DNA from: Lactarius indigo
Taxonomy: Eukaryota > Basidiomycota > Agaricomycetes > Russulales > Russulaceae
Assembly: GCA_025766275.1 (NCBI GenBank)
Contig: JAFKAC010000053.1
Coordinates: forward strand, 248,001-312,000
DNA: 64,000 nucleotides
Direction of reading: 5' to 3'
In this document: piece by piece, positions 16,781 through 51,658 of the stretch
How the letters are laid out: every line of letters starts with the position of its first letter
Position numbering within the stretch: the stretch's first letter is position 1
Position numbers and translations under genes: made by a program
The notes under the pieces: generated by a model
The model's database searches: none
Seen by the model: only the letters and a program-made list of their open reading frames with translations
What the model was told of the DNA's origin: nothing

Positions 16781-19700
16781 ATGACCTCATCTGGCGGAGA
16801 CCCGGATATTGAGGCTCAGACCCCTAGCGTTACGGAGAGTCAACCTGCAATCGTTCAAAATCTCCCACCTACTACAAATACCGCATATCCCGAGCTATCA
16901 ACTATTGCAGATCAGCCCCAGGCTACAAACTCCAATCAACACTACAACGGGAACGCTCCTGTACAACAAACTGCTGAAAATCCGCAGGTTCAGCGGGGTG
17001 TGTTGACTTTTTCCCTTTCACAAATCGTAATCTCATTCATGTACCAGACGAGAACCAGGGAGACTCTTCTGATGGGCTCTGGTCGATGTACCTCACTGAG
17101 GCCGAGAAGCAGGACACGCAGGTAACTGAGAGTTGGAAGGGGGACACAGACGGAATCCTCGTATTTGTGAGTCCTGGTCCCGTCCCTCTTGTGTATATTC
17201 AACGTCTAAAGCGCATCTCGAAGACTGGTCTATTCTCTGCAACCGTCGCCGCCTTCATCATTGAAAGCTACAAGACGCTGTCTCCCGATCCTAGCGTTAC
17301 GACCAATGCAATCCTTGCTCAAATATCCGTACAACTTGTCAACATCTCTAATGGGACACCTCTCGCGAGCGTTGCAGTGCAGAGCGGACAGCCATTCAAA
17401 CCGACAGCTTCCGCCGTCAGGGTCAACGTGTTGTGGTTCCTCAGTCTAATCCTGAGCTTGAATTGCGCACTTTCTGCGACATTGATGCAACAATGGGCTC
17501 GACGGTACAAGGAACTTGCGCAGCGCCGTGGTGCATTTCACAGGCGCGGACGTATGCGGGCGTATATATTCGATGGCATCAACAAATTTGGAATGGCGCG
17601 AGCCATCGCGACAATGCCCACGCTCCTTCACATATCGGTCTTTCTCTTCTTCGCTGGCCTCGTCGAGTTTCTTTTCCCGATCTACACCCCCGTCGCGTAC
17701 ACCGCGCTCGGCTGCATCATAGTGTTCGTTCTGGTATACGCAAATTTAACGGTTTTACCAACCATATGTCTCAATTGCCCGTATGCTACACCCCTGTCTG
17801 GACTTACCTGGCGTACATCCCAGTTCTCCGTGTTCGTATTCCTTTGGACCGTCCTCAAAATTGATGGTCTTTTTCTTAAACTTTTCTCAAAATTATGGAG
17901 GCTCGCCAACCAACACGTGCCTGAACCCCATGAGCCGAAAAGGTGGAGGGAGACACTCAACAAGCAAGTGAAGATCTATCGACAGCGGCTCTCGCAAAGC
18001 TTACGGAGGAATGTTGAACTTTGCGCCTATAGAGCCGAATCAATGGTCGTGACGAGTGCACTTGAATGGACACTCACAGCTCTCGACGAAGACAAGGAGA
18101 TTGAAGATTTTGCGGCACGAGTACCAGGATTCTTCGATTCTCGTGTTGTCCCAGATGCGACGTCAGCAGTCCTTTCCCTTATGTCCCACCCACCAAACAC
18201 CGATCCCGTTTTCGGATCCCGTCTGCACGATCTTCTCAAGACGTGTATACCGGGGACGTCACTTCTCGACGAAAAAATGCGCAAACACCGTCTGTGGGTT
18301 TGTCTGAACTGTCTGTGGTATTTTGGAAGAGCGTACAATTTTCCCGGGGCTTCTCAGCCGTTGCCATCCTATTTCCCTGACTCGCTCATTCCGGAGATCA
18401 CTCGTCGTGTTCAGACCGAAGAGGACCCTGCACTCCGTGTGGTGGGGCGCTGTGTAGTGGCAGTGATCAGAAACAAACTCGCAACCGACCTTAGACTCAA
18501 GGCGCTCACTATTCGAGTCAACGATGGGGTGCTGACGTGTCTATCGCCCGTCCTTGGTGCCGAGGGTTATGATCTGGAGTTTCTGTATCCCCAACCTGGT
18601 ACCGTCGCACTCGCGAACACGATTTTCCTTGCGTCTGGCGAGGTTGGTACCTTGGCCGCCGACGCGTTTCCACCGGATGTCCTGGATGTGGTACAACAGA
18701 CATTCACCATCCTCTCTCGAGCTCTTCTGGACCAGGAGAAAACTGAACTGCAACTAGGCCAGAAAATGCCCGAAACCGACGATTTTTACGAGAAATTTGG
18801 ACCCACCCTTGTACCCCGCCTCCTTTATTTCCTTGATACGTGCATGCGAATGCCTTCGCGTCTCACGGATGAGGTGCGGACGAGCTGTCTACGGATGTGC
18901 CTGAAACGCCTGTGGTTTATTGGACGAGCGTTCAATTGGCGCGGGAAATCGGCGCCTTTACCGTCCGAGTTACGCATGGTTTTTTCCGATCCAGAGATGA
19001 TTCGTTGCATATGCCAGCACGAAGACCCCGCTGTCCGTGCGATAGGACGTTGTGTTGGGGCGTTAATCGCGAACAATCTTGCGGTCAACTCACGCACAAT
19101 TCCGGTCAGCCACGCGGAACTGGAGTGCCTATTGGCTATCCTTGGTACTGAGGGTCGAGGCATGGAGCTCATACACCTGCTAAGGCAGCCCGGTGCAGTC
19201 TCGCTAGCGACTATCATTTCACTCATATTGGACGAGACTGGCACTTGGTTCTCGAACATAGTTCCGTCGAATGTGCTGGATGTATTACAACAGACAATCG
19301 CCATCCTCTCTCAACCACTCCTGGCTGAGCTACAACTAGAACAGACGGCCACCATATTTAGCGATTCTGACGGGAAGTTCGAATTCGCCCTCGGATCCTG
19401 CTTCATTGGCTTCCTCAATACGTGCATAAGAATGCCCTCGTCTCTCACCCGCACGAGCTGCTTACGGATGTGTCTGAAGGGCATGTGGCGTTTTGGGCGA
19501 GTGTTCGATCAGCTCGGGAACTCGATGCCTGTATCGTTCTACATACCCACCGCTTTCGCCGTTTCGATGACGATATCACGCATACGCTTCGAACCCGACC
19601 TCGCTTCCCGTGAGATAGGTCGTTGTGTTGGGGCGCTGGTCGTAAATAAGCTTGCGGCCAACCTCAAATCACGCACCGGTTCAATTACGGCTGTGGAGCT

Positions 19701-21306
19701 GGAGTATCTTAGGGCTATCCTTGACATCGAGATGGACGATGCGATGCATTTGCTTCGACATCCAGGCGCCATCGAATTTACGAATATGGTTCTCTTTGCG
19801 TTGGACTCCGCCTCTGCCGAAGTGCCCCCAGATGTCCTGGATGTAATTCAAGAGACGTTTAGTATCCTCTCTCAGGACCTTCCAGATGAATTTGATGTCA
19901 AGATGTGGCCAGACCGGACAGATACTCTGAATGATTCTGACGGTCAGTGTAAACTCATATTCTTGTCCATCTCTAAGGTCTAAAGGTGCACGTTAGGGAT
20001 CACATTTCTCTCCCATAATATGCAGAGGAGGCTTTTTCATATGAAAAACCTGTGGAATGTTGTAAGAGCGTCCAGTGAACGCGGGAATTCGGTGCCGTTG
20101 CCGTTCTACATCTGCGTCGCCTTCACCAGCTCGGTGATGAGCAGCCGCACATACCAGGACACTGACCCCCCCACCGCCTTGATAGGACGCTGTATTGGGG
20201 CTATTATCGTGACCAAGTTTGTATCCGACCTCAAGTCAGGCCTCGTTCTAGCCACTAACGAAGAACGGCATTGCCTATTGGCTATCCTTGGCACCTCGAG
20301 CCGCAATGTGGCGCTTTGGCTTAGACACCCTGGTGCCACCGAACTCGCGGGCGTCGTTTCCCTCATTTCGGATGCTATCCGCTTCTTGGTCGCCAATGTG
20401 GTGCCGTCGGATGTGATGGATATATTCCAGCAGACGCTCGACTTCGTCTCTCGGGCTCTTACGGAAGAAAGGATCGCCCGACAACAACCATATAAGACAA
20501 TATCTCCAATCAGCGCTGCTGACGGTGACTTCGAACGCTTTATCTCATCCCACCTAAAAGAATTCCCCAAGGTGTGCGTACCAAATACCTCACTCCTCAC
20601 GATTGAAGCGCGCACGAGCTGTCTGCGGGCACTCCTGAAGAGCCTGTGGTATTTTGCAAGATTGTACCATCAATTCGATGCTTCTGTGCCGATACCATCC
20701 TACTTCTCCCTCGTCCATGCTGGCCCAGAGATCACCCACCTCATTCAGACAGAATTAGACCCAAGTACCCGTGTGATAGGACGTTGTTTCGAGGCATTAG
20801 TCGTAGGCAAGCTCGTGGAAGGTACCAACTTACTCACTGACGAAAGCGTTGCATGCATATCGGCAATCCTTGGTACAGAGCACCATATTGTGTGGCATTG
20901 GCTCAAGCAGCCTGGCGCGATCGGTCTCCGGAATATCATTTCTGTCTTCTCAGACGAGATCGACACCTTTGTTGCAGACGAACTTCCAGCAGACGTGGTG
21001 GAAATATTACAACAAACGCTCAGCATCATCGCTAAAGACATCGTTCGAGGTCGCGTGTCCGCTGACGAGGATCTGTATATGGAACAAGTGGTATATTTCC
21101 ATAGTATATTCTCAATGGTCGCCGATGCGGGGGCGCCTGATTGGTTAAAGTATCGACTAGAGTGGATATTGTCACAACTGCCCGCAGTGGAGGACAGGAA
21201 CGGGCTACGAAGGAATGACTTGACTTCGGATGGGCAATTTTTGGAGTACAGTACGGACGATAGCTCCCTGAGATCGAGCTCAAACTCGACTGGGCAGACT
21301 GGCTAG
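16781..21306 (+). CDS. DUF6535 membrane protein with internal repeats (second paralogue)
   Basis: Four exons, 16781-16997, 17048-17166, 17224-19942, 19997-21306, total 4365 nt and 1454 aa, in frame throughout. The first three introns sit at the same places as in the left paralogue. The intron 17167-17223 is 57 nt without a stop; removing it joins ILVF to TGLFSATVAAFIIESYK as in the family. The DUF6535 part has hydrophobic stretches at VNVLWFLSLILSL and VFLFFAGLVEFLFPIYTPVAY. Behind it are five repeats of about 180-190 residues (beginnings such as DEVRTSCLRMCLKRLWFIGRAF; cores such as GRCVGALVVNKLAA). Unlike the left gene, most repeats are fused in one long exon and only one phase-1 repeat intron is present. 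It ends with a Ser-rich tail. Function unknown. Confidence 0.88.
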
Positions 21307-21727: not shown

Positions 21728-21746
21728 TAAGGGCCTGTTCGGCGCA
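21728..21746 (+). repeat. Left TSD (TAA) and TIR of the Harbinger element
   Basis: TAA at 21728-21730, then GGGCCTGTTCGGCGCA. Identical over 16 bp to the inverted right end at 34999-35014. Confidence 0.88.
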
Positions 21747-22031
21747 AGGAATGTGGCGTCACGGCGCAACGTGAGAATGAATTCCCCCGGTCGGGGGAAT
21801 GAGTTCCCATGGGGTGATGTTCCGTGTCTCCGAACGCCCCTTAGCCCAAAAGTAAATACATTGTTTTTGTCCCATGTATCCATCACGTGTGGTGACAAAA
21901 TGTCACAGCGGGTGACTCTATCTGAGATAAAACAATATCGAGATTGGTAGCAACTGAACGCGACTTGTACATATTCCCGTTAAGGCAGTCTGGGCGTACT
22001 AGGCTACAGACTCAAGTCAAACATCTTCTCC

Positions 22032-23322
22032 ATGAGCGACTCTCCAACTGACTCTGACTCCGAATTTGAAGAGGACGTGCTCATCTTTGCTTGCTTGGTC
22101 TTTGGTGTGTCAGTTTATTGGTATTCAGCACGCTTCAATAAGCAACCAGTGCATACTTCTGCACTCTCCGGGCAGCAATGGCTCGACGAACTTCTTGCTG
22201 GGCACGATGGACGATTTCACAACGAACTTGGAATGAACAAGTTCGTTTTCAGACGCCTCCTCTTGGTTCTTGAGGCCGATGCTGGGCTACATGGGACACG
22301 GCATGTCCATGCAGCTGAGCAACTTGCCATCTTCCTTCATTATACACGCAGGGGGCTCTCTAATAGGGCGTTGCAAGAGCGATTTCAGCGAAGTGGTGAT
22401 ACCATAAGGAAGTGAGTGTATTATAATATCACTCAAGTTCGTGCTTAGTCATCTACTTAGGTGCATCTATCGCATCCTTCACCTCCTGACATCAAGGGAG
22501 ATCTATTGCGCCTATGTTCGGCTACCTGTGCACAACGCGCCTATTCCCGCTAAGATCCTGGGCTCTGCCAAGTTCTCTCGCTACTTCAGGGGGTGCATCG
22601 GCGCATTGGATGGGACGCATATACCCGCGCATGTCCCCGAGGGACAGCGAATCTCATATCGCAATCGCAAGAACCAGCTGTCACAAAATGTACTTGCGGC
22701 CTGTGACTTTGATCTCAGATTCGTCTATGTCCTCCCCGGCTGGGAAGGAAGTGCTGCGGACAGCTGGGTCTATGAGGACGCCAGGGCAACTGGGTTTGAT
22801 GTTCCCGCTGGGCGCTATTACCTAGGGGATGCTGGGTATGCTAACTCCGAATCCTTGTTGGTTCCATATCGGGGCACGCGTTACCACCTCAAGGAATGGG
22901 GGCAAAGCAGACAGAGGTGCGTATGCATACAGTTTCATCGTTCGCTAACTGCACGTTGGACAAATAGGCCTCAAAACTATAGAGAACTATTTAACTATCG
23001 ACACGCACAACTGAGGAACCATGTGGAGCGCATCTTCGGCCTTTTCAAGAGGCGCTTCCGCGTACTGATGCTGGCCCCAGAATACCCCTTGGATGCGCAG
23101 GCACAACTCGTTTCCGCACTCGCAGTTTTACACAACTTTATTCGGATTCACGACCCCAGCGACCTCACAGAAGACAACAACAATGCAAACCATGCACAGG
23201 GTGACCCTGGCGATGGTCCCAATCACGCTGTAGGAGTTCATGACGCAGCAGCAGCTTTCAGAGATGGAATTGCTCACGATATGTGGCGAGATTACCAGGA
23301 CGGTGGTCACCGTCAGGCATAG
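22032..23322 (+). CDS. Harbinger-type DDE transposase (HARBI1-like)
   Basis: Three exons, 22032-22411, 22461-22916, 22968-23322, giving 396 aa in frame. DDE_Tnp_4 type. The catalytic acids are visible: first Asp in GCIGALDGTHI, second Asp in YYLGDAGYAN, Glu in NHVERIFGLFKRRF. The N-terminal region has the helical QERFQRSGDTIRK segment usual for the family. It is the cut-and-paste enzyme of the surrounding element, normally helped by the Myb-like protein encoded next to it on the same strand. No break is seen, so it may be active. Confidence 0.93.
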
Positions 23323-23533
23323 TGCCTATTGTGCTGCTGTATGTATCCGACTTCAATCAAAATTTTTTTCAATTGGAGCACTGTGGGACGTGTTGATCGT
23401 CGGACTGCATGGTCTGACTGAATTTGTTCATTCGGTCACCATAAGTGGACCTTTCCCTCGTGGAGCCCATATAATGGGCACCACAATTTTCTTTCAACTT
23501 GCGCTCTCTCTCTCTCTTGCGTCAAAACCCATC

Positions 23534-24755
23534 ATGGATGAAAAACAGGACAAGAACGCGGTCAAGTGGAGTCAGGCCGATGAGGCCATGTTGCTGCAAA
23601 CACTGGCCGACGAGAAGGCCAAGGCGAACTGGGGCGACAACAATCCCAAAAAGATCGCCTGGACAGCATGTGAGCGCACACTCATGGATAGCGAGAAGAA
23701 GTCAGGGGGAACCCCAAAGACCATCCAGGCCATCAAGAATAGATGGCAGAGAGTTTGTCGTCTCTATTTTGGACGGTCTGCGTTGACGACAAATGTACAC
23801 TCAGCTCAAGCAGGAATATGACATCGTCAAGGAGCTCCGAGGCCTTTCTGGCTTCGGTTGGGACCCGAACCTGAACACTGTCACGGCAGAGAGCGATGTC
23901 TGGGACGCATATATCAAAGTAAGTACTCAATTTTGTTGATCTCACAAGCAGCTCATCTATATATTCCACAGACACTCAGTCCCAGCAAAGCGAAGCTGGT
24001 CAAGAAGTTCCGCACCAAACCGTTCCCACTGTATAATGCAGTTGGTGAACTCGTTGATGGCACCCGAGCTACCGGCAAGCATGCTTTCCGGGCTGGACAG
24101 GCATCAGCATTCACCACTCCTCAACCCGGTGCACGCGAACCCACCCCATCCGACTTTTCAATCGACCCCGCCCTCAATGATATATCGCTTGACACGGAGA
24201 GGGTCTCGGGTGATGAGACTGGCATGCAGGCAAGTGCCCCTTGAAATGAACGACATGCCATTGACCCTACTGTAGACAACCATACCGCCGAGTGGCCATA
24301 GTGCTCAGTCTAAGGAGCCTGGTTACAGCTTTTACGGATTGGACAAGTATAGCAGTGAAGACGACAACATATCCGAATCTCAGGCTACCTCAGCCCCACG
24401 CCCATCAAAACGCAAGCGTGTCAAGAGCGCAGGACCATCAAACGAATCCCAGAAACCACGGCGGGTTTCAGCTGGACAGGGAATGTCTGAAATGGCCAGA
24501 TCCCTGCAAGATGTATTTGAGCAGATGAAGAAGAGGCACGAAGAAAAGGCGCCCTCAAAGCAGCAAGACCTTCTAAAGAAGGCGATCGACCTCCTTTCCG
24601 AGGATGCTATCCTCGATGACGACGAATTCATGGAAGTGGTCGATCACTTCTCGGATGACCCCAACGCTGCGAGGGCATATATTGCCATACAGACTTCTCG
24701 GATGCGTGCAGCATTCCTTCGGCGTCGATTGAAGAAACTGCATGGTGGGGTGTAG
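23534..24755 (+). CDS. Myb/SANT-like DNA-binding protein of the Harbinger element
   Basis: Four exons, 23534-23752, 23805-23918, 23972-24229, 24276-24755, giving 356 aa. The N-terminus is a trihelix Myb/SANT-like domain (KWSQADEAMLLQTLADEKA to KTIQAIKNRWQRLKQEYDIVKEL, followed by GFGWD). The middle is Pro/Thr-rich; the basic PSKRKRVK is a likely nuclear signal. The C-terminal part is helical. In known Harbinger elements this partner binds the ends and carries the transposase to the nucleus. The third intron uses a GC donor (GCAAGT at 24230). Start chosen at 23534 for its context; an upstream in-frame ATG at 23474 is possible. Confidence 0.85.
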
Positions 24756-24965
24756 TCATAAAGCCAAGCGCGGAGTAGTACAAATAGTTGCTGTAAAGAA
24801 TTGAAGCCCTCGTCGCACAGTGTATACATAGAAGGGCCATAGTGAATTGATATTTGTTCTGTGTGCGTATACGAGCACACACGACTTGTGCACGCTTTGT
24901 GTGAAGCCGATAAGGACATATCATGTTTAATTAAGATCTAAATATATATTACAATATGTTTCATG

Positions 24966-24990
24966 GGTCACACTCAGTAAAAAAGGAAAA
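24966..24990 (+). repeat. Left TSD and TIR of the nested Tnp2 element
   Basis: GGTCACA (24966-24972) followed by CTCAGTAAAAAAGGAAAA. Confidence 0.82.
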
Positions 24991-25565
24991 GTCAGCCGAT
25001 GTCGGCTGGTAGTCCGAAATAGTCACCGGGTAGTCAAATGTAGTCAAATGACAAAATTTGACTATTTGCAAGATTTCCGACTTCGGTTGACTACAATTTG
25101 ACTATATATTGACTACAAACGACTACAAATAGTTGGGTTCAGGGGCTTTGCCGAAGTCAACCAAAGTCAATACGTGGGCAATCCGAGTAGTCCGTAGTCG
25201 TTTTTGGTCAATCAGTCATCTAGACAGGGTCATTTTAGGTATAATCCCGGTTGTCTGGTAGTCACATTAAGTCATTTACGATAAATCTGTAGTCAATTTC
25301 AGTCCGATTTGAATCATTCCGGGAACAATCCAAGTCTCCAAAAGTCACACCAAGTCATTGACAGACAAATCCATAGTCGGCGCCAGCACAATGTAAGTCA
25401 TTTACCGTCAATTTAAGTCATTTGCCGTCAATTCGGGTCACTCAGGTAGTCAGTTGCTGTCATTTACTGATCACTCGTAGTCGTCCCGCGTACTTTCTGG
25501 TCATTTCATAGTCAAATAGTAGTCAAATTTTTCGACCGGCAGTCATGCCAGGTCCGGTACTCTAT
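24991..25565. repeat. Left subterminal region with many TAGTC words
   Basis: Short words TAGTC, AGTCA and GTAGTCAAAT recur every 10-25 bp in direct orientation for nearly 600 bp. The right end (34630-34765) holds the complement, GACTA/TGACT. Mirror-image subterminal arrays of this kind are typical transposase binding sites. No gene is present here. Confidence 0.7.
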
Positions 25566-25654
25566 GTGTATGTATGTCGGTAGGTCCAAATGCTAGTAAA
25601 AATCCCCCCAGAACTTGTCAAATACGAGCGCAGTGGTGCGCAAATACTACTGTC

Positions 25655-28425
25655 CTACTGTCCTGCAGCGACTTGCTTTTGGGACCCCTTCTTCGGCGCA
25701 AGCTTGCGCTGGAATATGGAGTCAGTGTCGGATACCTCGGACAATGGTAGTCTTACCCTCCCGATAATTTCCGTGACGGTCGACTTGAGAATATGTGAGA
25801 ATTCGGGGGAGTTGACAATGACCGCAATAAGATCTGTACCAGTTACAGTGAATATGAAGGGGTTTAGTTGGGATGTACGACGTACCGTCCTTGCGCCTCG
25901 ACTTTGGGGCACTGAGCTTGTTATCGCCGAACAAGGTCAGGAGCTCCGGCACTTGAAGGAGCTTGAGCGACGCGGCATCTGCGCGAGCGTCCTAAAGGCT
26001 GTGGGTGAGATAGTAGAATATACCTCCAAATGCTGACGCACCTTGTCTAACCCCGCTGAAAGTCCCGTAGGTTCCGTGCTAACGGTGGGCTGCTGGTTGG
26101 TAGAGTCGGCTCCTGTGGGAACTTCTGGGGTGTTGCTTGCAGTGACGTTGGTAACAGGAACTGGCCGCTTGATCTTGATTGTAGGCCCACGCGGTGGAGG
26201 CGACATTGCAACGTCGCGATACGAAGGGGTAGTGGGAATGGGCGGGATACGATTTTGGGAAGTAAGGGCCTAGAATAGGATTGATCAGAAGACTCGGAGG
26301 AGAATATACGAATACGTACCCCACCAGCACCGACCCAGCAACTCTCAAGACACTCGAGGGTCTTTTCGAGATAGATGTCGCTGATGAATGCGTTCGTCTT
26401 CGGTATTCCAGCGTTCTCGCACATTAGCCTGGCTTCCTGGCATGTCTTGATGGCGGCTGCCACAAGCTTGAGGGCGGTTGCGACATTGCCGACCTCCTGC
26501 CAACTAGTAAGCGAGGACGATAGAGTGATCCCACCTCCCGTGAACTGCTCATGCCCCCACCCTTGGCACGCGTTGTCCTCGTCGATGTCTGGCGACGATG
26601 GGTCTGCGAATTGGATGCGATTGAGGAGTGTAGTGACTTGCTCGGACGGCTCGCTTTGTTTGAACGACGACTGTGCGTTCATGGAACGAAGGAGCTGAGG
26701 ACCGTTGGTCAAAGAAGGGAAATCGGATGTAAGGATCGCTGTGAGGACGCAGTCAGTGAGAGCGTGTGCGAATGAGGACCCGAGGATATTCGACTTACCA
26801 ATGAGGTTGTCGGCTGGGGATTCGGCTCTAGGTCAGGGTGTAAGTGTGCAGGTGATACTCAGACGAACCTGATGGGTCGACGTGAAGGAGATGAAGACGT
26901 GTTGGTGCGGGTTCCGCACGGACCATCTCGGTGCGGCTAAGGAACGTGGGTGTGATTTTGCGTGCTGCGGGTCTTTGACTCTCTGTGGGCGAGTACTACT
27001 CGTCAGCGGGGTTGGATATCATTGAGTAGAGTACGTACCGTTTAAGAGCCCTTTAGTCCCCACAATCTTCTGCCCGGAAACCAAAATGCCGTCTTTGCTA
27101 TGCTTTTGAGCGTGCAATGCCGAGGGTGATTTGGGGCCAGGGCTCAACTCAAGAGCCCGCTTTGCTGCGTTCATGGGCGCCGCATCCTGAATTCGCGGAA
27201 TGAACCCAGTTGGTGCCGAGAGTGAAAGATTGTCGGAGAGGTTGGAATGTGGAGAAGCGGCACGTGCAGAGCCCATCGCTCCCCCGGCCCTAGCTTCTAC
27301 CTCGTTTCGCCGCAAAAAGACCTGAGTAACCACAGCGTCAGCCTTCCAATGAGCTGAACACAAGCGAAGTAATTTTTGCTCCGCTTCGAGGTCGAGTATG
27401 GCTTGATCATACTCGGCCGCAAAGAACTTCTTGACGAGCGTCTTGGTCCATGACTTGGATCCGCCAGAACGCACGGCCGATCGGGGGTCTGAGTTAACGA
27501 GGTTGATGAGCCTTTGAACAATGATTTCCGCGGAGCGTCGTATGTTTGATTGTTCGAGATTTGAGATTGTATTGCCGTTTGGACGACGGAGTGCGAGACT
27601 GAGCTTCGGTCGACTCTGGTTAGATTTCGTGACGATGGGGGGCCCCGATTTGTCCTTCGCACAGTCTTCGAAGTCCCAAAGCACAGATTCCGGAAGACAT
27701 CGTGGGCGCACGAGTGGAGCCTCCACGCTTTCGAGGAGTTCTTCAATGATCTTGTCCGTTGTAATGTCGAATTTTGCGGGTTGAGAAGCGGAATCGCTTG
27801 GCCCCAACGACGATGCGCGAGAGTCAGGGCCGTGAGAGTCTGCACGGCAAGAGCTCACGCCGCGGGGTACAACTGCCGTGGGATGTGAGTTAGCGATCGC
27901 CCGAGCTTTGGAAGAGAATTAATACGCACCTTGGTACATAGGGCTTTCACTCTTCGCAGTACCAAATCCTGCGAGGTCTCGTTCTGCATACTTGGCGAGG
28001 ACGGAGGACATGCGGAAGTGATCTTGGCGTAGTTCGCGGTAAAGAGGGTTGTGAAGAAGCTCGGCGTCGGTGAGCGCCGCGATGACATCAGGAGAGATGG
28101 AACGAGAACTCTTGCGGGGAGCCGTTGAACGATTAAGACCGGAACGCAAGGTCGAGCCTGACATGTGGGAACGTGAAGGACCAAACGTGGTCCCAGAGTA
28201 GTCGAAGTCGTGGTCGGTGTCAACGGTCGAGCGTCGACCGGAAAAATTGATTGGGGGCCTCGACCTCAGTGGAGGCTTCGACCTGTACCGGGGGCGCTGT
28301 GCGAATTCGTCCTCGTCCTCATCATCGAGGTCAGGTACCGTGTCCGAGTCCGGTGTGAAGTGCCCTGGGGGGGCATGGCTGGCCATATTGAAGTCGTCGT
28401 CGTAGTCGTCATCAAACTCAGACAT
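25655..28425 (-). CDS. Unrecognised 784-aa protein carried by the Tnp2 element
   Basis: Nine exons close in frame: 28425-27930, 27872-27039, 26982-26869, 26825-26799, 26738-26320, 26269-26042, 25991-25886, 25833-25757, 25708-25655. I do not recognise the family. The N-terminus is very acidic (MSEFDDDYDDDFN) and then Arg/Ser-rich (SGRRSTVDTD, APRKSSRSIS). The middle has a predicted helical part with KSWTKTLVKKFFAAEYDQA and ILDLEAEQKLLRLCSAHW. A second block reads SWQEVGNVATALKLVAAA and ends TLECLESCWVGAGG. Then comes a Pro/Thr-rich linker and a short basic tail (RRKLAPKKGSQKQ). No signal peptide or membrane segment. It is divergent from the transposase gene with 232 bp between starts, so it may be the element's second protein or a captured host gene. 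The intact frame over nine exons suggests selection. Confidence 0.75.
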
Positions 28426-28657
28426 AAAGCAAGTTTCCGAGACGGCGTAAACAAATGAGACTTAAGAAGAAAAAAAAAGGAGAAGTTGCCGCGAGGGAGA
28501 AGTTGAGATTCGACTTCAACGCGACGCAAGCGTAGGTAAAATGAGCACGTGCCCTTCGCAAGCTCCGCACCAGAGTCCGCTGCCTGCCCTCGCGCTTTCG
28601 CTTGCCCCCACTACGATATACAATAACTTTGACAATCCTTGCATCAATCGTGTAGCT
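28426..28657. promoter_or_regulatory. Divergent promoter region between the 784-aa gene and the Tnp2 transposase
   Basis: 232 bp between two outward-facing start codons inside the nested element. It contains an A-rich tract (28469-28480) on the plus strand. No specific motif recognised. Confidence 0.45.
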
Positions 28658-31600
28658 ATGACATCCCAAACTACTCCAAGACACACCTGCCAATGCTCCA
28701 AGTGTTATGGAACTTCAAGAATGGTTACAAAGCGGACAATCGAGTCTCATCTGCGACAAGATCAAGCCTTCCTCCAATCCCTCCCTTCCAATGCCGAATC
28801 AGCTCCTTTTGTGCGATCTCGCATAGATCAAACCATCCAACTCCTTTCTCAACTCAATGGGGGCATCTTACTCCCTGTTACACTGCTGGATGTTGTTGGA
28901 TCTCGCTCAGAGGGCTCAGAAGGTATTTGTTAATATTAATAATAATAATAATAATAATATTAACCCCAAAGCGGCACAGATCCCCCACTTCAGCTGGCTA
29001 ACACCCACTCCGAGGATTCGGGGCAGCTTGATAAGGAAGCTGTAGAGCCTGGTAAGTATATTATATTAATATAAAGTGGGTGACTCTGTACTTATGGCTA
29101 CATGGTCTTAGATGATCTTTTTTGTCCTGACATGGACATTGATCTAGGCTCTACTGATGCTGCTGCTGATTCAACTTACCTAGGGATGGACCCCAATATC
29201 TCTGACTCAGAGATGGATCAACACCCTGTGGTTTCTGAGGCTGGCTCTGGCTCTGTGGACTCTGGCTCTGACTCTGACTCTGATGAGGCAGATTTTCATC
29301 CTGCTGTATTTTCCCCCTCAATAGGGGATCTGGGCACTTCTGACCATGGCTCCTTTTCTGAGAGGGAGTCAGGTGGTGTTAGTTCTGGTGGTGGCGATGA
29401 CTCTGGTACTGACTTTCCAGAAGTTGTGAGGCGACTTCAGGCACAGCTTTTATCAGGCTATACCCCACCCAATCACCCATCTGTTGATGACCCTAGGGGT
29501 CGTACACTTACCCCAGATGAAGAGCTTTCTTTAAAGCACTACATTGCATGGGTCGACTCTCGCGGCACTGTAAAGGCATACAAGCTCCATGCCCAGGTCC
29601 TTCAAGAGGCCACAGGCACTGAGATTCTTAGCCTATATATGGTGCGGAAGCTTGCCATAGAGCTTACAGGGTTGTCATCTCAGCTGGTTGACATGTGCCC
29701 CAAAAGCTGCATGGCTTTCACTGGAGAGTTCAAACATCTCCATTCCTGCATCTATATCCGCGACAAACGCCTTGGGCCTTGTGGTGCATCACGCTATGAC
29801 AAAAATGGCCGCCCAAAAGCCCAAATGCTTTATACCCCTATCACACCTGTTATTCAGTCCCTTTATATGAATAGGAAGATGGCGGGAGCTATGCGGTACC
29901 GCCATGAGCATTTACAAGAGGCTCTGAAAAAGCTGAAGCCTAATTCCCCCCCCACCATATACTCAGATTTCTCTGACTCCATCAGCCATCTCAATCACTC
30001 CTATTTATTCAGAGAACCCACTGACACTGCAATAACTATCTCTGGTGATGGTGCTCAGCTCACCATGAAGAAGCAGTCTGATGTATGGGTTCTTATTGTC
30101 ACCATTTTAAACCTTCCTCCCAACATGCGATCTAAAGCTGCCAATATTATCATTCCACTTGTTATTCCTGGACCCTCTTCACCTGGAAATGTGGAGTCAT
30201 TCATTTATGTCCTCTATGAGGAGCTTGCCAAGCTTAGTGCTGGTGTATGGTCCTTTGATGCATATTCAGGGACATACTTTCTTTTAAGGGTCTTTCTTTG
30301 TGGTGTTCTTGGAGATATGCTTGGTTCTGCAAAACTCAGCAGAATGGCTGGACATATGGCTAGATATGGATGCCGTTTTAGTATGGTGCAGGGTGCACGC
30401 CCTAGTAAGGAAAGAGGTATGCTACATTATACTGTTGTATTATTTTATCTCACTATTTTATCTTATAGGTGCTAAATCTCAGTACTACCCTCTCTCTCCA
30501 CCTCAAAGTCAGGAGATTAATAGTGATCGCCCTCATTTTGACATTTTCAACCTGCCTATTCGAACTCTAGAGGGCTACTGGAGAACTATTGAAAGGCTTG
30601 AAGCTGCAAAGGGAAACCAGGCACAGCATGCAGCAATTGTGCGGGAAACTGGTGTCTCTGGTCTTCCCATCTGTGCAGCTAGCCCTGCCTTCTCACATCC
30701 ATTCTTTTTCCCACTTGACCCCTTCCACCTCTTCTATGAAAACTGTATGCCACATATCTGGGATATATGGGTCTCATTTAGCTCTCAGTCAGAAAGTGTT
30801 TATATGGGTCAAGATATGGCTTCAAAGCTTGGAGCAGAGGTAGAGAGTGCCATAGCAACATTACCCTCATCCTTCTGTGGACCTATCAGAGATCCATCTA
30901 AAAAGCGACAAAGCCAGTACAAGATATATGAGTGGATGGCCCTCCTTCACTGGTATATTGTCCCTATTGCCTCAGAGCTTGGATTCAATTCAGCAGTGAT
31001 CAAGAACTTTGCCATGTTCTCAAATGTGGTGGAGTATGCTATGACAGCTGTCCCTCGAACAAAAGATGATTTGGCCAAGCTACAGAGCAAGATTATCCTT
31101 TTCCTTCAAGAGTTTGAACACCTCTATGTTGGCAATGATCCATCTAAAATTTCCCGCTGTAGACTCTGCATCTTTCAGCTCATTCATATTCCCTTCCATA
31201 TTTCCTATAATGGCTCTATCAGATTTGGCTCTCAAGCTACATGTGAGCGGGCCATTGGAGATATTGGGCATGGTATTAGGTCAAAAAAATCCCCCTTCAA
31301 AAACATTGCCTCATACAGGACAGACAAGCAGTCTGTTAAAATTCTACACCTCTCTTATCCAACACTCTTCCCAGAGCCTGAAGTAAAGGCTCAAAGAACT
31401 TCACTGTTCAAAGAATTTACTATCACCAAAAAGCAGAAAAAGGAAGACCCTAACTTGAAGGCCCACTTACAGGCAATCCTGTCTTATCCTGGAATAGGGC
31501 CAGATCCCACATATATGTGCTGGGGAAAGTGCCCTCTTTCTGATGGTGCCACCCTTACAAGCCAGCTCTATGAGCTTTCAAGAAGGTCCACCTCACGCTC

Positions 31601-31964
31601 CTCTAGGTACTTTGAGGCTCAGCTAGGCCTATTACAGTCAAAAGATGAGCCTACAGATGAAACACAGATAGAAGTGGAGAAGACTAAACCAATATTTGGA
31701 GAAGCCTTAGCCTTCTATACTATTGCTGGCCTCTCCCTTGTTGTCTATCATCCATTGATAGAGCGCCACCAAAGGTTTGGAAGATGGTCTGGAAAGTGGT
31801 CATCAGCAGTATTTGCCCTTGAGACATCAGCAATAGTCAGCCTTATTGGGATCTGGACTTACAAAGATAATGTTCATATTTTGCGAAGACACCCAGGACT
31901 TACCCTACTGACCCCAGATGAATGTGGTCTTGATGGTGAAGTTGACTTGAAGATATCGTACTAG
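28658..31964 (+). CDS. Tnp2 (En/Spm, CACTA-related) transposase
   Basis: Four exons, 28658-28922, 28980-29051, 29112-30416, 30469-31964, total 3138 nt and 1045 aa. The N-terminus MTSQTTPRHTCQCSKC has a small Cys cluster, with a KRTIESHLRQD segment of the kind that opens basidiomycete Tnp2-type transposases. A Ser/Asp-rich acidic linker follows. The Tnp2 core contains ISGDGAQLTMKKQSDVWVLIVTILNLPP, IIIPLVIPGPSSPGNVESF, FLLRVFLCGVLGDMLGSAKL and MAGHMARYGCRF. A His/Pro-rich helical C-terminal part follows. The first intron holds a TAA microsatellite (28929-28965); its acceptor at 28979 was chosen because it keeps frame. No break found, so the element may be autonomous. Confidence 0.88.
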
Positions 31965-32478
31965 GCTCACCTGTATTTATATAACCTATGTGTTTAGCTA
32001 CAGAAACAGTGATGGCAGAAATGACATACCGGCTGTGCTTGTGTCTTAAGTACTTGAAGTCTGTCCGCACCTAATAATGATCTCCCAAAAGAAAGGGGGC
32101 AACTCACCAAGATGCCACAGTGTCGGGCCGGCACTTCGAAATTGTGGCCCCAAAAGAACCTAATCAAACTTTCGAAGCACAAGTCTTGATGGCGACGCCA
32201 TCCTGAACTTGTAAAACAGCCTGTAAAAGTTAGTGCCTAAATGCTGGGGAGAATGGACGCAGATGGCCGGCTCGTCAGTAACCTGAACGCGAGGTGAGCC
32301 GCCCACCTGAACGTGACAGCAGTCGACCTCCATATGTGGGGCCACTGCATGGGAGCGAGGGGGAAAGTGCGTGAGCAACTCGCGGCAAAAAAAATTCACG
32401 CACGATATCTACGTGTTCGTCACGTACGGCCGGCTCTGTAAAACGCTGCATGCGCCCGGAACTACCATGGATGGGTAG
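31965..32478. other. Non-coding part of the nested element
   Basis: Between the transposase stop and the APH-like fragment. Only short ORFs are present and none is recognisable. Confidence 0.5.
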
Positions 32479-32850
32479 GAGCCCCTCCCTGAGCTCAGCG
32501 ACGAGCTGCTTGGCGTGCCAGAGGAAACACTGCGCGCGCTCGAGGCGCCGGCGGAGCGGCGAGGAGAAAAGATCACAGACGTGCGCGGGGACACGCTCGT
32601 GATGGGGACCTTTGCCCGGGGAACATCCTCGTCGGGGCCGAGGAGGAGAGCCCAACGCTCGTTGTTGATTGGGAGATCGCCAGGCCGTGGCTGGCTGGGA
32701 ATGACGTCGGCCAGTTTTGCGCCGAGCTGGCGATGTTGCGGCGCCTTCACCCAGAGCGTGCAGAAGCGGCCGGCGAGGTGCTGAAGAATTCTGTCCGCGT
32801 GTACTTTGCGGGCGACATTGGGCCGGGGCAGAGACACGACACCTGCATGG
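32479..32850 (+). pseudogene. Fragment of an APH-family phosphotransferase gene, frameshifted
   Basis: GC-rich stretch encoding the C-terminal half of a kinase-like phosphotransferase of the APH family (many fungal members are small-molecule kinases of unknown substrate). The reading passes LSDELLGVPEETLRALEAPA and DTLVM, then continues in another frame with DLCPGNILV, TLVVDWEIARPWLAGNDVGQ and VYFAGDIGPGQRHD. The switch is at 32601/32602, where one base is missing exactly in the catalytic His-Gly-Asp codons. The nucleotide-binding N-terminal half is absent. Base composition differs from the surrounding element. It is probably a host gene piece picked up by the element. Confidence 0.6.
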
Positions 32851-33269
32851 TGCTAATTCCTGCGCCAGACTCTACCCGAAGATGGCACAGACCTGGAGAG
32901 TCTCGAAGAAAGACGCTATTCAGTTTCGAGTTAAACTGGATATAAGTAACTCACCGAAAATTACTTCGGTCGAACGACCTCCGCTGACTGCCGACCAGTC
33001 GAATTTGCGGCTGAGTGACTTCTATTTAGTCCGAATACGACTTGATCGAGACCTTGCTTAGCGAGAAATAGATGCGTGTCGTCAAGCGTGTCGTTGAGCC
33101 TGGTAAACCTGGAAAGCACCTTCGGACGTTAGAGGTTCAAAGCGGGACGAATATTTGAGGGGAAGAAACGAAGACATACCAACGAAGAGGGCGACCAACA
33201 ACAAAGGTGTCCTCAAGGGATGTCCACCGGCGAGATCCATGAAATCTAGTGAGCGTCATTTAGCACTGC

Positions 33270-34560
33270 TTGATCAAAACTTACCGGTCTCGAGGCAGTT
33301 GTCCTGTGCGTCGACAAGAGGGGCAAGGTGGTGTCCTAGTCAATGCGATCTGGGAACGTTCTGGTGTTAGTATGGGTGTTGAAACCGCTGTGGAAGACGG
33401 TTCTCGAAGGGAAGGCGAGGGGACAGTTGGAGGAGCGCTCGATGACAAGGATAGTGTTGCCAGTGCAGACTGGTATCCATACAGTCCCTGTAGGCGATGG
33501 TGACGGTCCAGCCAACGTAGAGACCGGCATCGATATGGTAGGCGTGAGAGAACGTGAGGATGGCGACGAGTAAGTAATCGGCGGTGACTCACTCAACTGG
33601 CTTTTGTCGATGGATATCCGGACCCTCGGGGAAGGCTATAGACTGGACCGAAGGGGACGTATCGACGATTCGTACGCATCGTCCGTTTCCGGTGTCAAGA
33701 GGATCCTTGAATCGAAGCAGAGGGGCCGGAGAGAGGTTCGGCTGTCGGCCTCTCAGATGGTAACTCGCTAGCCAGGAGAGAAGGGCTTGACAAAAAAAAG
33801 TGAGGACGTTGTCTGATGGGTAGAAAAGAAAACGACGATTACTAGTGGTTGTGGGAAAGTCTCCGAAGATCTGACTCGGGGTGTCGTGACGGACTCAGGG
33901 ACTGGTATCTGGATCTCCTCCGCAGCAGGTCGAGGGAGGACGGATTCTTCTGCAAATGCTGGGGGAGCAATTAGAATTGGCTCTACAACAGGCTTGGGGA
34001 TAGCCTGAACTTCCTCGTCAACGGGCCATACGATGGTTGCACGAGTTCCTCAACTGGCTGAGGGGCAACGGTATGAATGACTCCTGTGAAGTGGGGTGAG
34101 CCGCGTTAAACACACTTTTTAAGAACCTACCGGTCTCGAGAGTGTCGTCGGAGATGGTACTCGAAGGGAAGGTGAGGGAGTGGTCGGAGGAACGGTTGGC
34201 GATAGGGATAGTGTGGTCGATGCAGAGACTGATATCAATGCTGCGACAATGGAGCCCCCGGAAACGCAGACGTCGACACCGACATAATATGCGAAAGAGG
34301 ATTCCGCCCCAGAGAGATAAGAAAAAAGATAGATGCGCGAGTTAGTAGGATCCCTCGAGGGAAAGGGAAGGACTCACATCTGCTGCGTCTGTCAGTGGGG
34401 AGCCCATGCCTCCCAGCCATCCTTTCCAGTATCATTTGTCGCTTCGTTTCCATCAGTGTCGTTGGTGTCGTCGGGATTGTCGTATTCAACGACATTGGTG
34501 CATCGCGTTGTGCAGATAATCGAAAATAGCCCGGATTCGGAATACAGTAAGGCAATCGTA
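33270..34560 (-). pseudogene. Decayed Ser/Thr/Pro-rich gene remnants
   Basis: Minus-strand frames give repetitive Ser/Thr/Pro-rich peptide: VSASTTLSLSPTVPPTTPSP near 34180-34230 and a related LATLSLSSSAPPTVPSPSL near 33400-33460. A long Val/Pro/Glu-rich stretch between them (PVDEEVQAIPKPVVEPI, about 33845-34035) is shifted by one base relative to its upstream part. GT-AG signals such as GTAGGT near 34132 are present. No complete model could be built, so it is called degenerate. Family unknown. Confidence 0.35.
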
Positions 34561-34776
34561 ACCGAGTTTCATTATGTAAAAAAAAAAGTCGATTTCAGTC
34601 AATCTCGCGCTGTAACTATCGCTAGTTTTCTGACTAGGTCTGACTACCAAATGACTCCCATCCGGCTTAGCTGGACTTGGCAAAAATTTTGACTACCGGC
34701 AGTCTCGGCTCGACCTGAATTCGGCCCGCGACGACCCACGACCGACACCCCCGGACTGCCGATGACTAATTCCGAA

Positions 34777-34801
34777 TTTTCCTTTTTTACTGAGGGTCAC
34801 A
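34777..34801 (-). repeat. Right TIR and TSD of the nested Tnp2 element
   Basis: TTTTCCTTTTTTACTGAG followed by GGTCACA (34795-34801); exact inverted match of the left end. Confidence 0.82.
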
Positions 34802-34998
34802 GTCGTGATTCAGGTGATGTCGGCGCAGAGAATCAAAAGTGGGAAACGAGTATTTTTACTGCGCCAGTTTGATAGGGCTGCGCCATGGGATCTCTTCGCC
34901 AACCCCTCGGCGCAATGTGCACCGAACAGCAACTTTGCCCCGTGGCGCATACATGGGGCACATTTTTTTTTTTGGCGGATGCGCCGTGGCGCAACGGG

Positions 34999-35017
34999 TG
35001 CGCCGAACAGGCCCTAA
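34999..35017 (-). repeat. Right TIR and TSD (TAA) of the Harbinger element
   Basis: TGCGCCGAACAGGCCC followed by TAA at 35015-35017. The 34802-35014 stretch is the detached right end of the Harbinger element, beyond the nested insertion. Confidence 0.88.
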
Positions 35018-35568: not shown

Positions 35569-36829
35569 TTACAACAAAGAACTGTCGACAAGCAAAGGAC
35601 CAATGTATGCCGGGCGCTCCTTCGGTAACAAGGTCACCCAGCGTGTTCTTCCAATCTCGGAGGCCTTCTTCCCGAAGTACCGCTCTGTTTCGAAGTTCCA
35701 CTGATCATTGGCTCGCACCAAGTTCCCGATCCCATCCACATACCGCGCCAGCTCGGTGTCTACTGGCTCACCAAACTTTGGGATCTTGTTCTCATAAAAG
35801 TCCATGAACTTTGCTTCTAGCTTCTTGTGGCGGTCGTGAACCCAGTTCATGGCACCTTGGATGTCGGTCTTGTGTTGGCGCATAACGATGGTTATGATGT
35901 TGTGATCGTCGTCACCTCGCGCCTGCTCCACGTTGTATGAGGCAATATCCTACGGCCAGCGCCCCATTGATCAGCCTCAGAAAGTTTCAGGAGCTTGCGT
36001 GACCTACGTTGTCGAGTATGATCATGTCAATAGCTAATATCGTCATTTCTTCGATGACAGGATGGCTCACGGCTTCATCGGGCAGATTCATATCCAACTC
36101 GATGAGAGCGAAAGCTGGTCTGGCGCTGATTGTGTCTCTCCTGAGCTCAAAGTACTCTTGGACGTTCCGGATGTGCTTGTGATCCCGGTCCGCGGCTTCC
36201 TGTACCGTCGCCTGAGCAAAAGCGCCGTACACCTTGATGAACCTTTTCTGCGCCTGGGGACTGGCCGTCTTGATCGCGAGCTCCCAAAACCTCGAGTGAA
36301 TCTGACTTCAACTTATGGTTATGCTGATATCATCACAGCAGCTTACTGTCTGGCGATTTCCCCGCCAACCCATTCGCCTTCAGGACGAGGGGTGTGTGGG
36401 TTGCGAAGAGCGTCCATCATGGCGTTGGCCATAGCCTGGACCTCGCCCTCGTTCCCTGTCTCGGAAAATTCATCGTAGACAAAGATTAGGTTCACCAAGT
36501 CGCAACCGGTGCGTAGACGGGCTATGCACCAACAATAAGCCGAGCGTTGCATGTGGTCTATGTCGGATACTCACCCTTGTCATGCAACGGATACGCAAGA
36601 GATGCGAAGAGGACTAACAGTGGGTGAGTATTTGGATTTTATCCGAGTTGACCTAGCTGCTCGTACTGAAATCGCAGCGATCGTAGGCCTCCTGGGCTTT
36701 GGGACTAAAGGCCTCAAAGCTTCTCATCCACGCTACAGCCGCTGCATGGACCTCGTTATGATACGGATTGATACGACGGGGCCATTTCCAATTCTCTAAG
36801 GTTTTTGGGATATAGTACCTCTCAGCCAT
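35569..36829 (-). CDS. Sesquiterpene synthase (class I terpene cyclase)
   Basis: Five exons, 36829-36667, 36613-36575, 36521-36347, 36305-36008, 35949-35569, total 1056 nt and 351 aa, the usual size. Class I cyclases ionise farnesyl diphosphate with a Mg2+ cluster. The N-terminus ([18 protein letters not shown]) fits the family. The Asp-rich motif is in [11 protein letters not shown] (D84-E88, so DE..E). The NSE motif is NDIASYNVE (N225, S229, E233) followed by [10 protein letters not shown]. The late Arg-Tyr pair is R315-Y316 in FETERYFG. There is no signal peptide, so it should be cytosolic. The acceptor at 36306 was chosen because it restores [11 protein letters not shown]. No P450 or other tailoring gene lies beside it in this window. 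The product cannot be told from sequence. Confidence 0.93.
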
Positions 36830-42131: not shown

Positions 42132-45100
42132 TTATAGTGGGGCAAATCCAACTGCTGTAACAATGTCTATGTCGTTTGGGTTTGCTAGTACTAGCTCAGG
42201 CTCATGGTCTTCTGCTCTGTCGCTCACATCCTCGTCTTCGCCTCCATCTTCGCCATCCCAATCTGAGTCACCGGCACTGCCCTGGTATTCCGCCATCTCA
42301 ACCGGATTTTCATCGGCCCCTTGTGTCTCTCCCAGCGGCATGTGTTCATCTCCAAGCAGGATATGGTCACATTGACGTGTGCCAAGATGGCCAACACCCC
42401 CGCCGCGATATCGCATAAATAGATCACGATCTGAAAACCTATAGCAATGTTGTATTAGAATATAGCGACTGCAATAGTGGCCAGCTCTTACATTGCGACG
42501 TAGTATCCTTCGTATTCTCCATCCGGGTGAGGGTTTTGAATGGCCATAGAAGGCCCAGACAGTAGAAGTCTTGTTCGACCTGAAACGAAGTCTGGTATCA
42601 GGTGTACCATCCGTATGACTTCGCTGGGATCTAAAAAGCCGAATGCCGGCCCAAGTACGTCAGTGTCAGGCAGAAAACCGACCCTGTGCAGCCGTTGTGC
42701 ACGCCATCCACTCCGTCCGTTGACAGTGTCCAATCCAAGCCATCGAACATGTAGGACATCCATCCGCTTCGCATCAGTAAGGCCCGAGCTTGACATTCTG
42801 GTGCGTTCGCGAACCATAAAATGATATACTCCCACAACCCGAGCATGCCAGTACGGGAATGCCGGCTGCCCTTCTTTGTCATCCTCGTGTGCCAGAACGA
42901 TTATATCTGTGTGAGATTGGGGGTTAGCGGTTTCCTCCATCCTCTGAGCGTCATAGGTTGTCGACTTGAAGCGGATGGTCCTATGTACATGCAAGCGATT
43001 CCGTTCAATGATGATCTCATCGCGTTCCTTAGCTGTAAACTCGTGTTCATCACCAGAATATGGAAGGCCTTGGATGCGCGCCCGCAGGTGATCAAGTAGG
43101 CGAGTACGGAATTCCTGTGTGTTGATCTACATCAGCACCATGCCACCAAATCCGACTCATACATCTGCCCATGACTTACACGGAGTGCGGGATCTCCTCG
43201 GTGTTGATACAGCCAATCAGTGAGGTCCCAGGTAGATGCATCGGTCTTGGGCATCCAGTAACGCTCACCTGGGTCACTCGGTGATGCTTCGTCGTGTTGT
43301 AGAAGAGGGTGCGCGATCAGGGAAGTGTCTGGGTCCTGAGGCCCATTCTCTGGCACGGAGTCGGTGGCAGAAGGGTTCTGTCCCTTAGATAATTCCTCGC
43401 ACATAGCGGTGTAAAATCGGCTCCGGCTTTCCCTGTCGGTGATCTGTTGGGTATACCTGCGATTCTTGTTGGACATCCTGTACCACATCTTGGACAGGCG
43501 ATGCGCGATCTCACTCTACCAAGATCAGATGAGTCATCTACCTGGAATATAAGTGTTAATCAACATACTATCTGCGTGCTGTACGAATCTGTGGTCCCAT
43601 ACTGCCGGATTGCTTGAGGATAGTCTGGGATACAGTGCATTTTGTATGTACACATGTTGAAACGTTTGTGCTTTACAGAGCTGGTGCCTTTTCGAGTTGC
43701 CTTGGTTTCACACGGCTTCAGTTGATTCTGTTGGCGTGCCACACGTGCATTTTTTTCCCGTGGGAGCTCTCTGGTCGCATAGCGAGTACAAGTGGTGCTT
43801 GCAAACCGTCGCAAGGTTTGACACAAGGAAGTTCCGACAGTCTCCTGCATCCTCAGAGTTGAGTCAGTATGTAGTCTGAGCTTGGCGTAGGCGTGCCAAG
43901 TGGAAAGTAGGAATAAGAGATCGATTATTGTTTTGTTGTCCTCATCTGGGAAGAGCCCTTCAAAGGCGGGTATTGAGCACTGCTCGTCTATCAGTTTTGG
44001 TCAACAGCATCACAAGATAGTTTGCGAACCTGTAGGATGTCTTCATAGTCTCGAGCTGCCAGTTTACTGAGACCAGAGACGCCCCCTGGTAGCTTGCGAA
44101 TGGTATCGCGACCAAACGTTGGGGTGCTGTGAAATCTGTAATACAACTAAGCGCATGTTCATGAAGACGTAGACACAGATATACCTTGAGTCTAGTTCTG
44201 CCACAAGAGCGTTCCCTCCCGGTAATGAGAACAACATCCTGATCAGATGCGTGAGCACCGACTTCCAGATGCCGAGTTCGAATTCGTGCAGTAAATCCAC
44301 AACGAATAACTTGTGGTAGTCGTGTCCTACACCAGTAAGTGTATCCGAGAATGCGTTCTGGTAAACGCGTTAGTAGTTTTCAAGTCGGAAAAGCTAGTAG
44401 TATTAGGTACTTACTCGAGTCGGCACCATGGAGTAATCCCTCAGGATGTCCTGTACGCGCTTACTTGTAATTGCCAAGCCCTTCTGATACATCAACTTGC
44501 ATGCGGCCTCAACCTTTTGACGCCTTCGTTCGTTGTCGATGCGAAGCTTCTGGCGCAGTCTGGTATCTGTACGTGTACCGACACCGCCTATTTCCTTCAA
44601 CAGGATTAGACAACGGGGACAAGGCGATCGTCCCAAATTCTTGATTGTAGCTAGAAGAATTCTGATCTTAATCAGTCCCGCGTCATGAGTTGATTGAGCG
44701 CACTTGCACTCACTTCTCGGGATAGTCTGCAGTGTACGTTATTATCCGAAGGAAAAACCTCCGCTCAACGCCATCGGTGCAGCGAATCACAAGTCCCTGC
44801 GTGTAACCTTCAGTGAATCCTTCGTCCATAAGATGGTTCCACACGGTGTGCATGAGCTCACGCTTGCAGTGAAGCTCGACTGCAGGCGACAGTGGTTGGC
44901 CTGTCTTCTCTTGATATCGGCTTGCGAAGTCGCTACCAATCTGTAGGTCATCTGGGTCATCCATGAAGATACAACAAAGTTCTAAATACGTACCGATGGG
45001 ACATATGCCAAGTGGTGTACTGCGTGACATGTAGGCTTCGTCCTCTCTTGCTTGGGTTGATTCGCAAACATGATGTAAATTGGCCATACCGTTGCTGACC

Positions 45101-46319: not shown

Positions 46320-46512
46320 GGTCAGATAGTTGAGATATGGATCAGCGCACTCTCATGCAAGATATGAGGAGTACCCACTATTGCGTTACATTCGAGTCTC
46401 ACCATTGTCTGATTCACCTATTTTGTCAACGGCGACTATCTGTCAAAAGTGATCAGCGATCAAGAGACCGTTTACTTAAACCTTTCCTAAGTTCCTACAG
46501 CTGCACACCGGC

Positions 46513-50947: not shown

Positions 50948-51658
50948 ACGGCTCTGTGCATTCTTTCCTCCATTTCCTGACCCAGAGACCGTTCCTCTGT
51001 TGATCCGCGCTGCCACGTGCCACGCCTTCTCCTTCTCGCAACTGCACCTGAATATCGTTGTCTCGTATCTACGATGTCACCATTTACAATGGTCCTTTTG
51101 TGCCAAACCCTCCGGGTCTGTCTGAATTCGATGCAAGTTTTGCTATCTCGTCCAGTGGCTTCGTAAACTTGAACCGTCCATTCGTGATTGCTGCACCTCA
51201 CGTTCCACACAGTTGGATTTAGGTAACTCAATTGTGCTTTCATGATTTGATGCCCAGGTCTACGCTACCACTGGACGCCTCCCTTGTCACATTCCGCTTG
51301 CTTGCTCTGGCTTCCGAGATACTCAACCCCTCACAGTCTTCGCGCTCGTACATCGGTTTTCACCCTCTTACTAGATACCCTGGTCCGAAAGGCGTATATC
51401 TTCGGGACTGATAGTTACGTCAAGAGCCCGTGGGATCACCGCGGTGACGGTAGGCACGTGAGTCAATTTTTGATCTCAGCCATATCAAGTCACCAGCCTT
51501 ATCCACCTGAAGGACTAAAACAAACCGTCTATTCGCGATACTGCACTCAAACCACAATCCTCGGTCAAGGTGAGGTGGGCGGCAGTAGTTCTGTACCTTC
51601 AATTCCTACACACCACTACGCGTTGCTACTTAAGACAGTCCAATTCTCTGCGACACCA

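Follow-up and report, generated by a model that had tools for sequence, protein, structure and literature searches.

How did two pairs of perfect terminal inverted repeats (TIRs), one lying inside the other, come to share a single locus of the Lactarius indigo genome, and which enzyme placed the inner pair? The locus belongs to a stretch of 64,000 nucleotides (G000:C241:248001-312000), the whole of which we call the window. The original prediction saw here a Harbinger transposon with 16-bp TIRs and flanking TAA, interrupted by a Tnp2 element with perfect 18-bp TIRs and GGTCACA on each side. Reading of the junctions and searches of the genome (90.3 Mb, 291 contigs, one genome) confirm that two cut-and-paste DNA transposons are nested, and Pfam domain matches uphold both family labels. 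Nesting in itself is ordinary; the part worth following is the tnp2 lineage of the inner element, with its 7-bp target duplications. The layout is as follows.

21731-35014: outer Harbinger
24973-34794: inner tnp2 element, 9,822 bp, within the Harbinger
21728-21730: left TAA target duplication of the Harbinger (sequence read)
21731-21746, plus strand: left 16-bp TIR of the Harbinger, GGGCCTGTTCGGCGCA (sequence read, genome search)
24966-24972: left GGTCACA target duplication of the inner element (single GGTCACA at the empty site)
24973-24990, plus strand: left 18-bp TIR of the inner element, CTCAGTAAAAAAGGAAAA (sequence read, genome search)
34777-34794, minus strand: right 18-bp TIR of the inner element (sequence read, genome search)
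34795-34801: right GGTCACA target duplication of the inner element (sequence read, empty site)
34802-35014: remaining 213 bp of the Harbinger at its right end (alignment)
34999-35014, minus strand: right 16-bp TIR of the Harbinger, reverse complement of GGGCCTGTTCGGCGCA (sequence read, genome search)
35015-35017: right TAA target duplication of the Harbinger (sequence read)

Only one predicted coordinate needed correction: the inner span, given as 24973-34801, starts correctly and ends at 34794, the last seven bases being the right duplication. The inner TIR occurs at 94 places with at most one mismatch and its reversed pattern at none; for the outer TIR the corresponding figures are 29 and 2, and for the exact 13-mer CTCAGTAAAAAAG they are 141 and 0. 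These counts lie so far above their controls that chance is excluded.

Could the outer repeats come from a pair of short, unrelated Harbinger-family elements that flank the inner one by accident? Ends with a related TIR, GGGCCTGTCCGGCGCA, are common elsewhere in the genome, as such a reading would have it. The same genome, however, contains a Harbinger without the inner element (C248:1544009-1547462), the very copy that the original prediction had suggested looking for. It is unbroken through both TIRs, has TTA on both sides and measures 3,454 bp, within one base of the window Harbinger (3242 + 213 = 3,455 bp, close to the predicted 3.45 kb). Window positions 21730-24972 align as one piece to C248:1544222-1547463, 34802-35014 carries on into the same copy, and the aligned part holds one single-base gap. 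This continuity effectively excludes an origin of the outer TIRs from separate elements, a finding that the original prediction had said would overturn it.

Where the window holds the inner element, the C248 copy has one GGTCACA and no footprint. Cut-and-paste elements can excise, and the C248 site might once have been filled and then precisely vacated; an excision that removes just one of the two duplications should be rare, and with a clean single target at the site we regard this history as very improbable. The predicted order, Harbinger first and tnp2 element second, is shown by the empty copy together with a second, independent inner copy, and it holds even under the precise-excision reading. 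It is thanks to the nesting that a filled and an empty site are available within one genome. The second inner copy (contig C16, L010) has the same boundaries as the window element and its own target, GATCACG. It is 99% identical across all three matched pieces, with 22 differences in the 2,656 bases compared; two insertions, of ~7.8 and ~18.6 kb, interrupt it.

Two side observations belong here. The ~7.8-kb insertion in the C16 copy (inner coordinate ~1139) starts with TGTAAC, shows a 5-bp overlap and resembles a long terminal repeat element. The empty C248 Harbinger (L109, near 1547463) abuts the end of another GGGCCTGTCC-type element, with a common TTA.

The 7-bp duplication extends well beyond this site. 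TIR pairs were picked by eye as convergent TIRs from the genome-search lists, solitary ends lying outside the count. The first set comprised 24 pairs, from which three were set aside as same-site copies (C53 and C265 with the flanks of C33, C57:38k with those of C57:163k). An exact 7-bp duplication is present in 16 of the 21 independent pairs, and no pair matches at lengths of 3-6 or 8-11 bp; C51, whose flanks are unequal, has a 2-bp match. When flanks were given the wrong partner, 13 of 420 combinations matched at 7 bp. A later set added five exact 7-bp duplications in seven pairs, bringing the sum to 21/28, with no match at any other length from 3 to 11 bp in all 28. The targets are alike as well: all 16 first-set sites have C or G at position 4 and A at position 5, 15 have T at position 3, 14 a pyrimidine at position 6 and 12 a purine at position 2. 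The target is thus roughly palindromic, about N-R-T-(C/G)-A-Y-N, and the element ends read CTCAG..CTGAG. A duplication of this length is unusual among tnp2 elements, a point that the original prediction did not raise.

On C20, C35, C46, C57, C225, C236, C242, C266, C270 and other contigs there is a sister family with a tnp2 that is 49% identical; 11 of its matches share a score of 388.6 bits, which suggests a recent burst. Its left ends also begin with CTCAG, CTCAGTAAAAA(A)GAAAAG. A search for its right ends found none, and the one candidate pair, on C219, has unequal flanks; we therefore make no 7-bp claim for this family.

Elsewhere, a Ty3-type retroelement with a chromodomain lies between two CTCAG ends with unequal flanks (L077, C112:1307890-1317887), and at L171 (C179:118258-118303) a second CTCAG-type end begins where the 7-bp right flank of a different element stops, so that the two seem to abut.

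Which enzyme moves the CTCAG ends? We compared all 92 tnp2 matches with 120 TIR places at a distance of up to 7 kb. A CTCAG TIR accompanies 20 of the 41 matches with at least 72% identity and 19 of the 31 at 42-70%, set against a chance expectation of at most 1.9%, and none of the 20 matches at 36% or less. Since the ends occur near close tnp2 matches and near none of the distant ones, they are tied to one tnp2 clade. From this linkage we infer that tnp2 is the enzyme of the 7-bp cut. The inner element might alternatively have been moved in trans by another 7-bp transposase, for example of Kyakuja or hAT7 type, with tnp2 a passenger. The available text of PMC12730594 gives 7-bp duplications for Kyakuja and hAT7 only, both in basidiomycetes. 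Copies of 2.1-2.8 kb with the same ends contain no tnp2 match, so these ends have indeed moved in trans. Both facts speak for this alternative; against it stands the association with a single tnp2 clade. In addition, the 42 open reading frames (ORFs) of at least 80 aa in the inner element yielded no transposase domain of another kind, KDZ and hAT included (Pfam, E up to 0.1), its TAGTCA-rich subterminal arrays fit CACTA-type elements, and Kyakuja, which like hAT7 is another transposase family than tnp2, lacks TIRs (PMC12730594). We consider a foreign transposase unlikely, and return to tnp2 and the element that carries it.

24973-25600: left subterminal repeat region, TAGTCA at 19.1 per kb, both strands counted (35101-64000: 0.28 per kb)
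34500-34794: right subterminal repeat region, TAGTCA at 13.6 per kb (same comparison)
26047-28461, minus strand: second gene; its three ORFs have 77-83% identity to their counterparts in the C270 copy (sequence comparison)
28658-28922, plus strand: probable 5' exon of the tnp2 gene, predicted; weak Transpos_assoc match (E 0.05, below the cut-off), similar N-terminus in P0052
29102-31964, plus strand: tnp2 (Transposase_21) transposase, E 3.1e-13, predicted exons 29102-30416 and 30469-31964, 936 aa, one 52-bp intron
31398-31956, plus strand: C-terminal region equivalent to the BAH-like domain in the predicted structure of the relative P0135
32493-32945, plus strand: APH/choline-kinase-like fragment, E 0.006, below the cut-off (Pfam, sequence comparison)

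A Pfam search of the minus-strand ORFs of the second gene gave no match. The kinase-like fragment matches open frames at C75:7524 and C215:880810 with ~80% identity across 88 residues, and is probably a captured host sequence. The nearest named proteins come from Lactarius and Gloeopeniophorella, and those further off from Artomyces, Auriscalpium, Jaapia and Serpula.

What kind of transposase is it? AlphaFold models of two relatives, 53-71% identical and with mean predicted local distance difference test scores of 71.3 and 69.1, have a predicted fold that matches RAG1, BbRAGL and HzTransib; in structure comparison ~450-480 residues align to RAG1 at about 10% identity. One of the two, P0135, has a predicted BAH-like C-terminal domain. 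The candidate catalytic residues of the window protein are D316, D405 and E698. As the catalytic acid we prefer E684 of P0135, which is E in 52/52 rows of A2 with letters, to the acid of the IG(E/D)xGH motif, which varies (E 65, D 38, N 2, H 1 in the 106 sequences, of 239, that match the search string). CMCT transposases (CMC/EnSpm-Transib) are characterised by C(2)C and H(3-4)H between the second D and the last E. The C(2)C site soon after the second D is degenerate and reads GCRFS in the window; in A2 its variable residue is D in 43/53 and C in 10/53, and the second position is S in 52/53. Loss of C(2)C throughout the clade, proposed from this GDRFS/GCRFS site, was withdrawn, because a CRLC...HIPFH cluster lies just before E698 in the window tnp2.

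How does the inner element compare with known systems? With CMC/EnSpm/CACTA transposons it shares the Transposase_21 domain, AGTCA-type subterminal repeats, a second gene and the RAG1-like fold predicted for the two relatives. PMC12730594 ascribes to the CMCT transposons duplications of 2-5 bp and CA..TG ends 'in most cases'; plant CACTA elements have 3-bp duplications (PMC8978399) and animal relatives 2-bp ones, with fungal Transposase_21 proteins also noted (PMC1636069). TransibSU-2_PM has a 5-bp duplication, CCAGG (PMC4411706). The inner element, in contrast, has CTCAG ends, the 7-bp duplications counted above, a palindromic target and a predicted BAH-like C-terminus. It works like a CMC transposon, with the same transposase, but departs from the clade in two listed features, duplication length and ends, and we therefore file it as a variant rather than a standard member. 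Plavaka is likewise a fungal transposase of the CMCT clade, but has 2-3 bp duplications and TGT or CATCA ends of its own (PMC12730594); the Pfam Plavaka model matched 1/60 members of A2 (E 0.0053). With Transib, TransibSU and RAG1 tnp2 shares the predicted fold and the candidate D, D, E at the low identity mentioned. No 7-bp CACTA or tnp2 element appeared among the literature matches listed, with Repbase, supplements and most subscription papers outside the search. Abr1 of Agaricus bisporus is said to make 7-bp duplications. That element is named in a table of PMC7473861.

We propose the following explanation. A PIF/Harbinger of 3,455 bp, encoding a DDE transposase and a Myb-like DNA-binding partner, entered a TAA target first. 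The 9,822-bp tnp2-type element later entered its 3' part at GGTCACA, past the second gene, and neither gene was broken. Most likely the RAG1-fold tnp2 transposase binds the TIRs and the AGTCA-type subterminal repeats, perhaps assisted by the minus-strand protein in a TNPA-like role, and would connect the element ends to both strands of the target at a stagger of 7 bp; the BAH-like domain may read chromatin and help in target choice. To this explanation as a whole, nesting and 7-bp tnp2 lineage together, we assign a probability of roughly 85%.

Several points weigh against it. Flanks are unequal in 7/28 pairs; C51 and C179 still match at 6/7 positions, and C112 is also interrupted by a retroelement. 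For 21 of the 41 close tnp2 matches, none of the CTCAG TIR kinds searched for lies at a distance of up to 7 kb; truncation, insertions or mutated ends may be responsible. The link between tnp2 and the 7-bp cut is one of association, and the CTCAG/7-bp family comes from one genome, the only one examined. The evidence on fold comes from models of relatives, with no solved relative found, and sequence searches detect neither RAG1 nor BAH; the Pfam BAH model had no match among 60 relatives (E up to 1), so that the BAH-like assignment is one of predicted structure.

Do these elements form a distinct RAG1-fold lineage, defined by a 7-bp staggered cut at palindromic N-R-T-S-A-Y-N, CTCAG ends and a BAH-type chromatin reader of its own? 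We put this stronger proposal forward tentatively, its chances falling a little short of even. Duplication length is a main classification criterion for DNA transposons and mirrors the spacing of the transposase's two cuts. A strict 7-bp tnp2 lineage would break the 2-5 bp rule stated for the clade and allow a natural comparison of the ways in which RAG1-like enzymes determine their stagger; if it is real, stagger length can shift within one transposase fold. Should the BAH-like domain prove real, it would make tnp2 a chromatin-reading transposase, and the PHD finger of RAG2, partner of RAG1, would then parallel the reader that tnp2 itself carries. The system lends itself to testing, with its open gene models, more than 100 similar ends and short non-autonomous copies.

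What remains of the outer element? As predicted, its two genes are intact, that is, without internal stops.

22032-23322, plus strand: Harbinger DDE transposase (DDE_Tnp_4, E 1.2e-26), predicted exons 22032-22411, 22461-22916 and 22968-23322, 396 aa
23534-24755, plus strand: Harbinger Myb/SANT-like protein (Myb_DNA-bind_3, E 1.3e-15), predicted exons 23534-23752, 23805-23918, 23972-24229 and 24276-24755, 356 aa

The open frames of both genes, like those of the main tnp2 exons, assume GT-AG introns and one GC-AG intron, and the D, D, E of the Harbinger transposase was picked by eye in the open gene model. The short TIRs, the TWA target duplications (TAA in the window, TTA at C248), DDE_Tnp_4 and the Myb-like protein are all those of PIF/Harbinger elements with a Myb/SANT second protein, from which the window copy differs solely by the 9.8-kb insert that it carries.

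Identity to the C248 Harbinger is 95.60% over 2,999 bp and 91.55% in the right 213 bp. The larger part holds 132 differences, 129 of them transitions; 97 window CpGs read TpG or CpA in C248, with 3 changes in the opposite direction, and the C248 transposase frame holds two stops. Because the window keeps CpGs of which C248 has lost most, its Harbinger is the better preserved. Recent activity of both elements, also part of the original prediction, is plausible given the few differences between the inner copies and the CpGs kept in the window, yet this is a softer claim, as these two are the only full-length Harbingers that the genome search found, with shorter pieces with similar ends elsewhere.

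The rest of the window contains further features of note.

1-6219, minus strand, and 16912-21306, plus strand: an inverted pair of DUF6535 genes that contain internal repeats ~580 bp long; at their longest (1,207 nt) the arms are 82% complementary
35569-36307, minus strand: terpene synthase exons (PF19086), ~550 bp from the Harbinger right end
44982-46352, minus strand: fragment of a Plavaka transposase (E 1.9e-14)
51608-62429: a unit present in three tandem copies, with a serine carboxypeptidase match in the first copy

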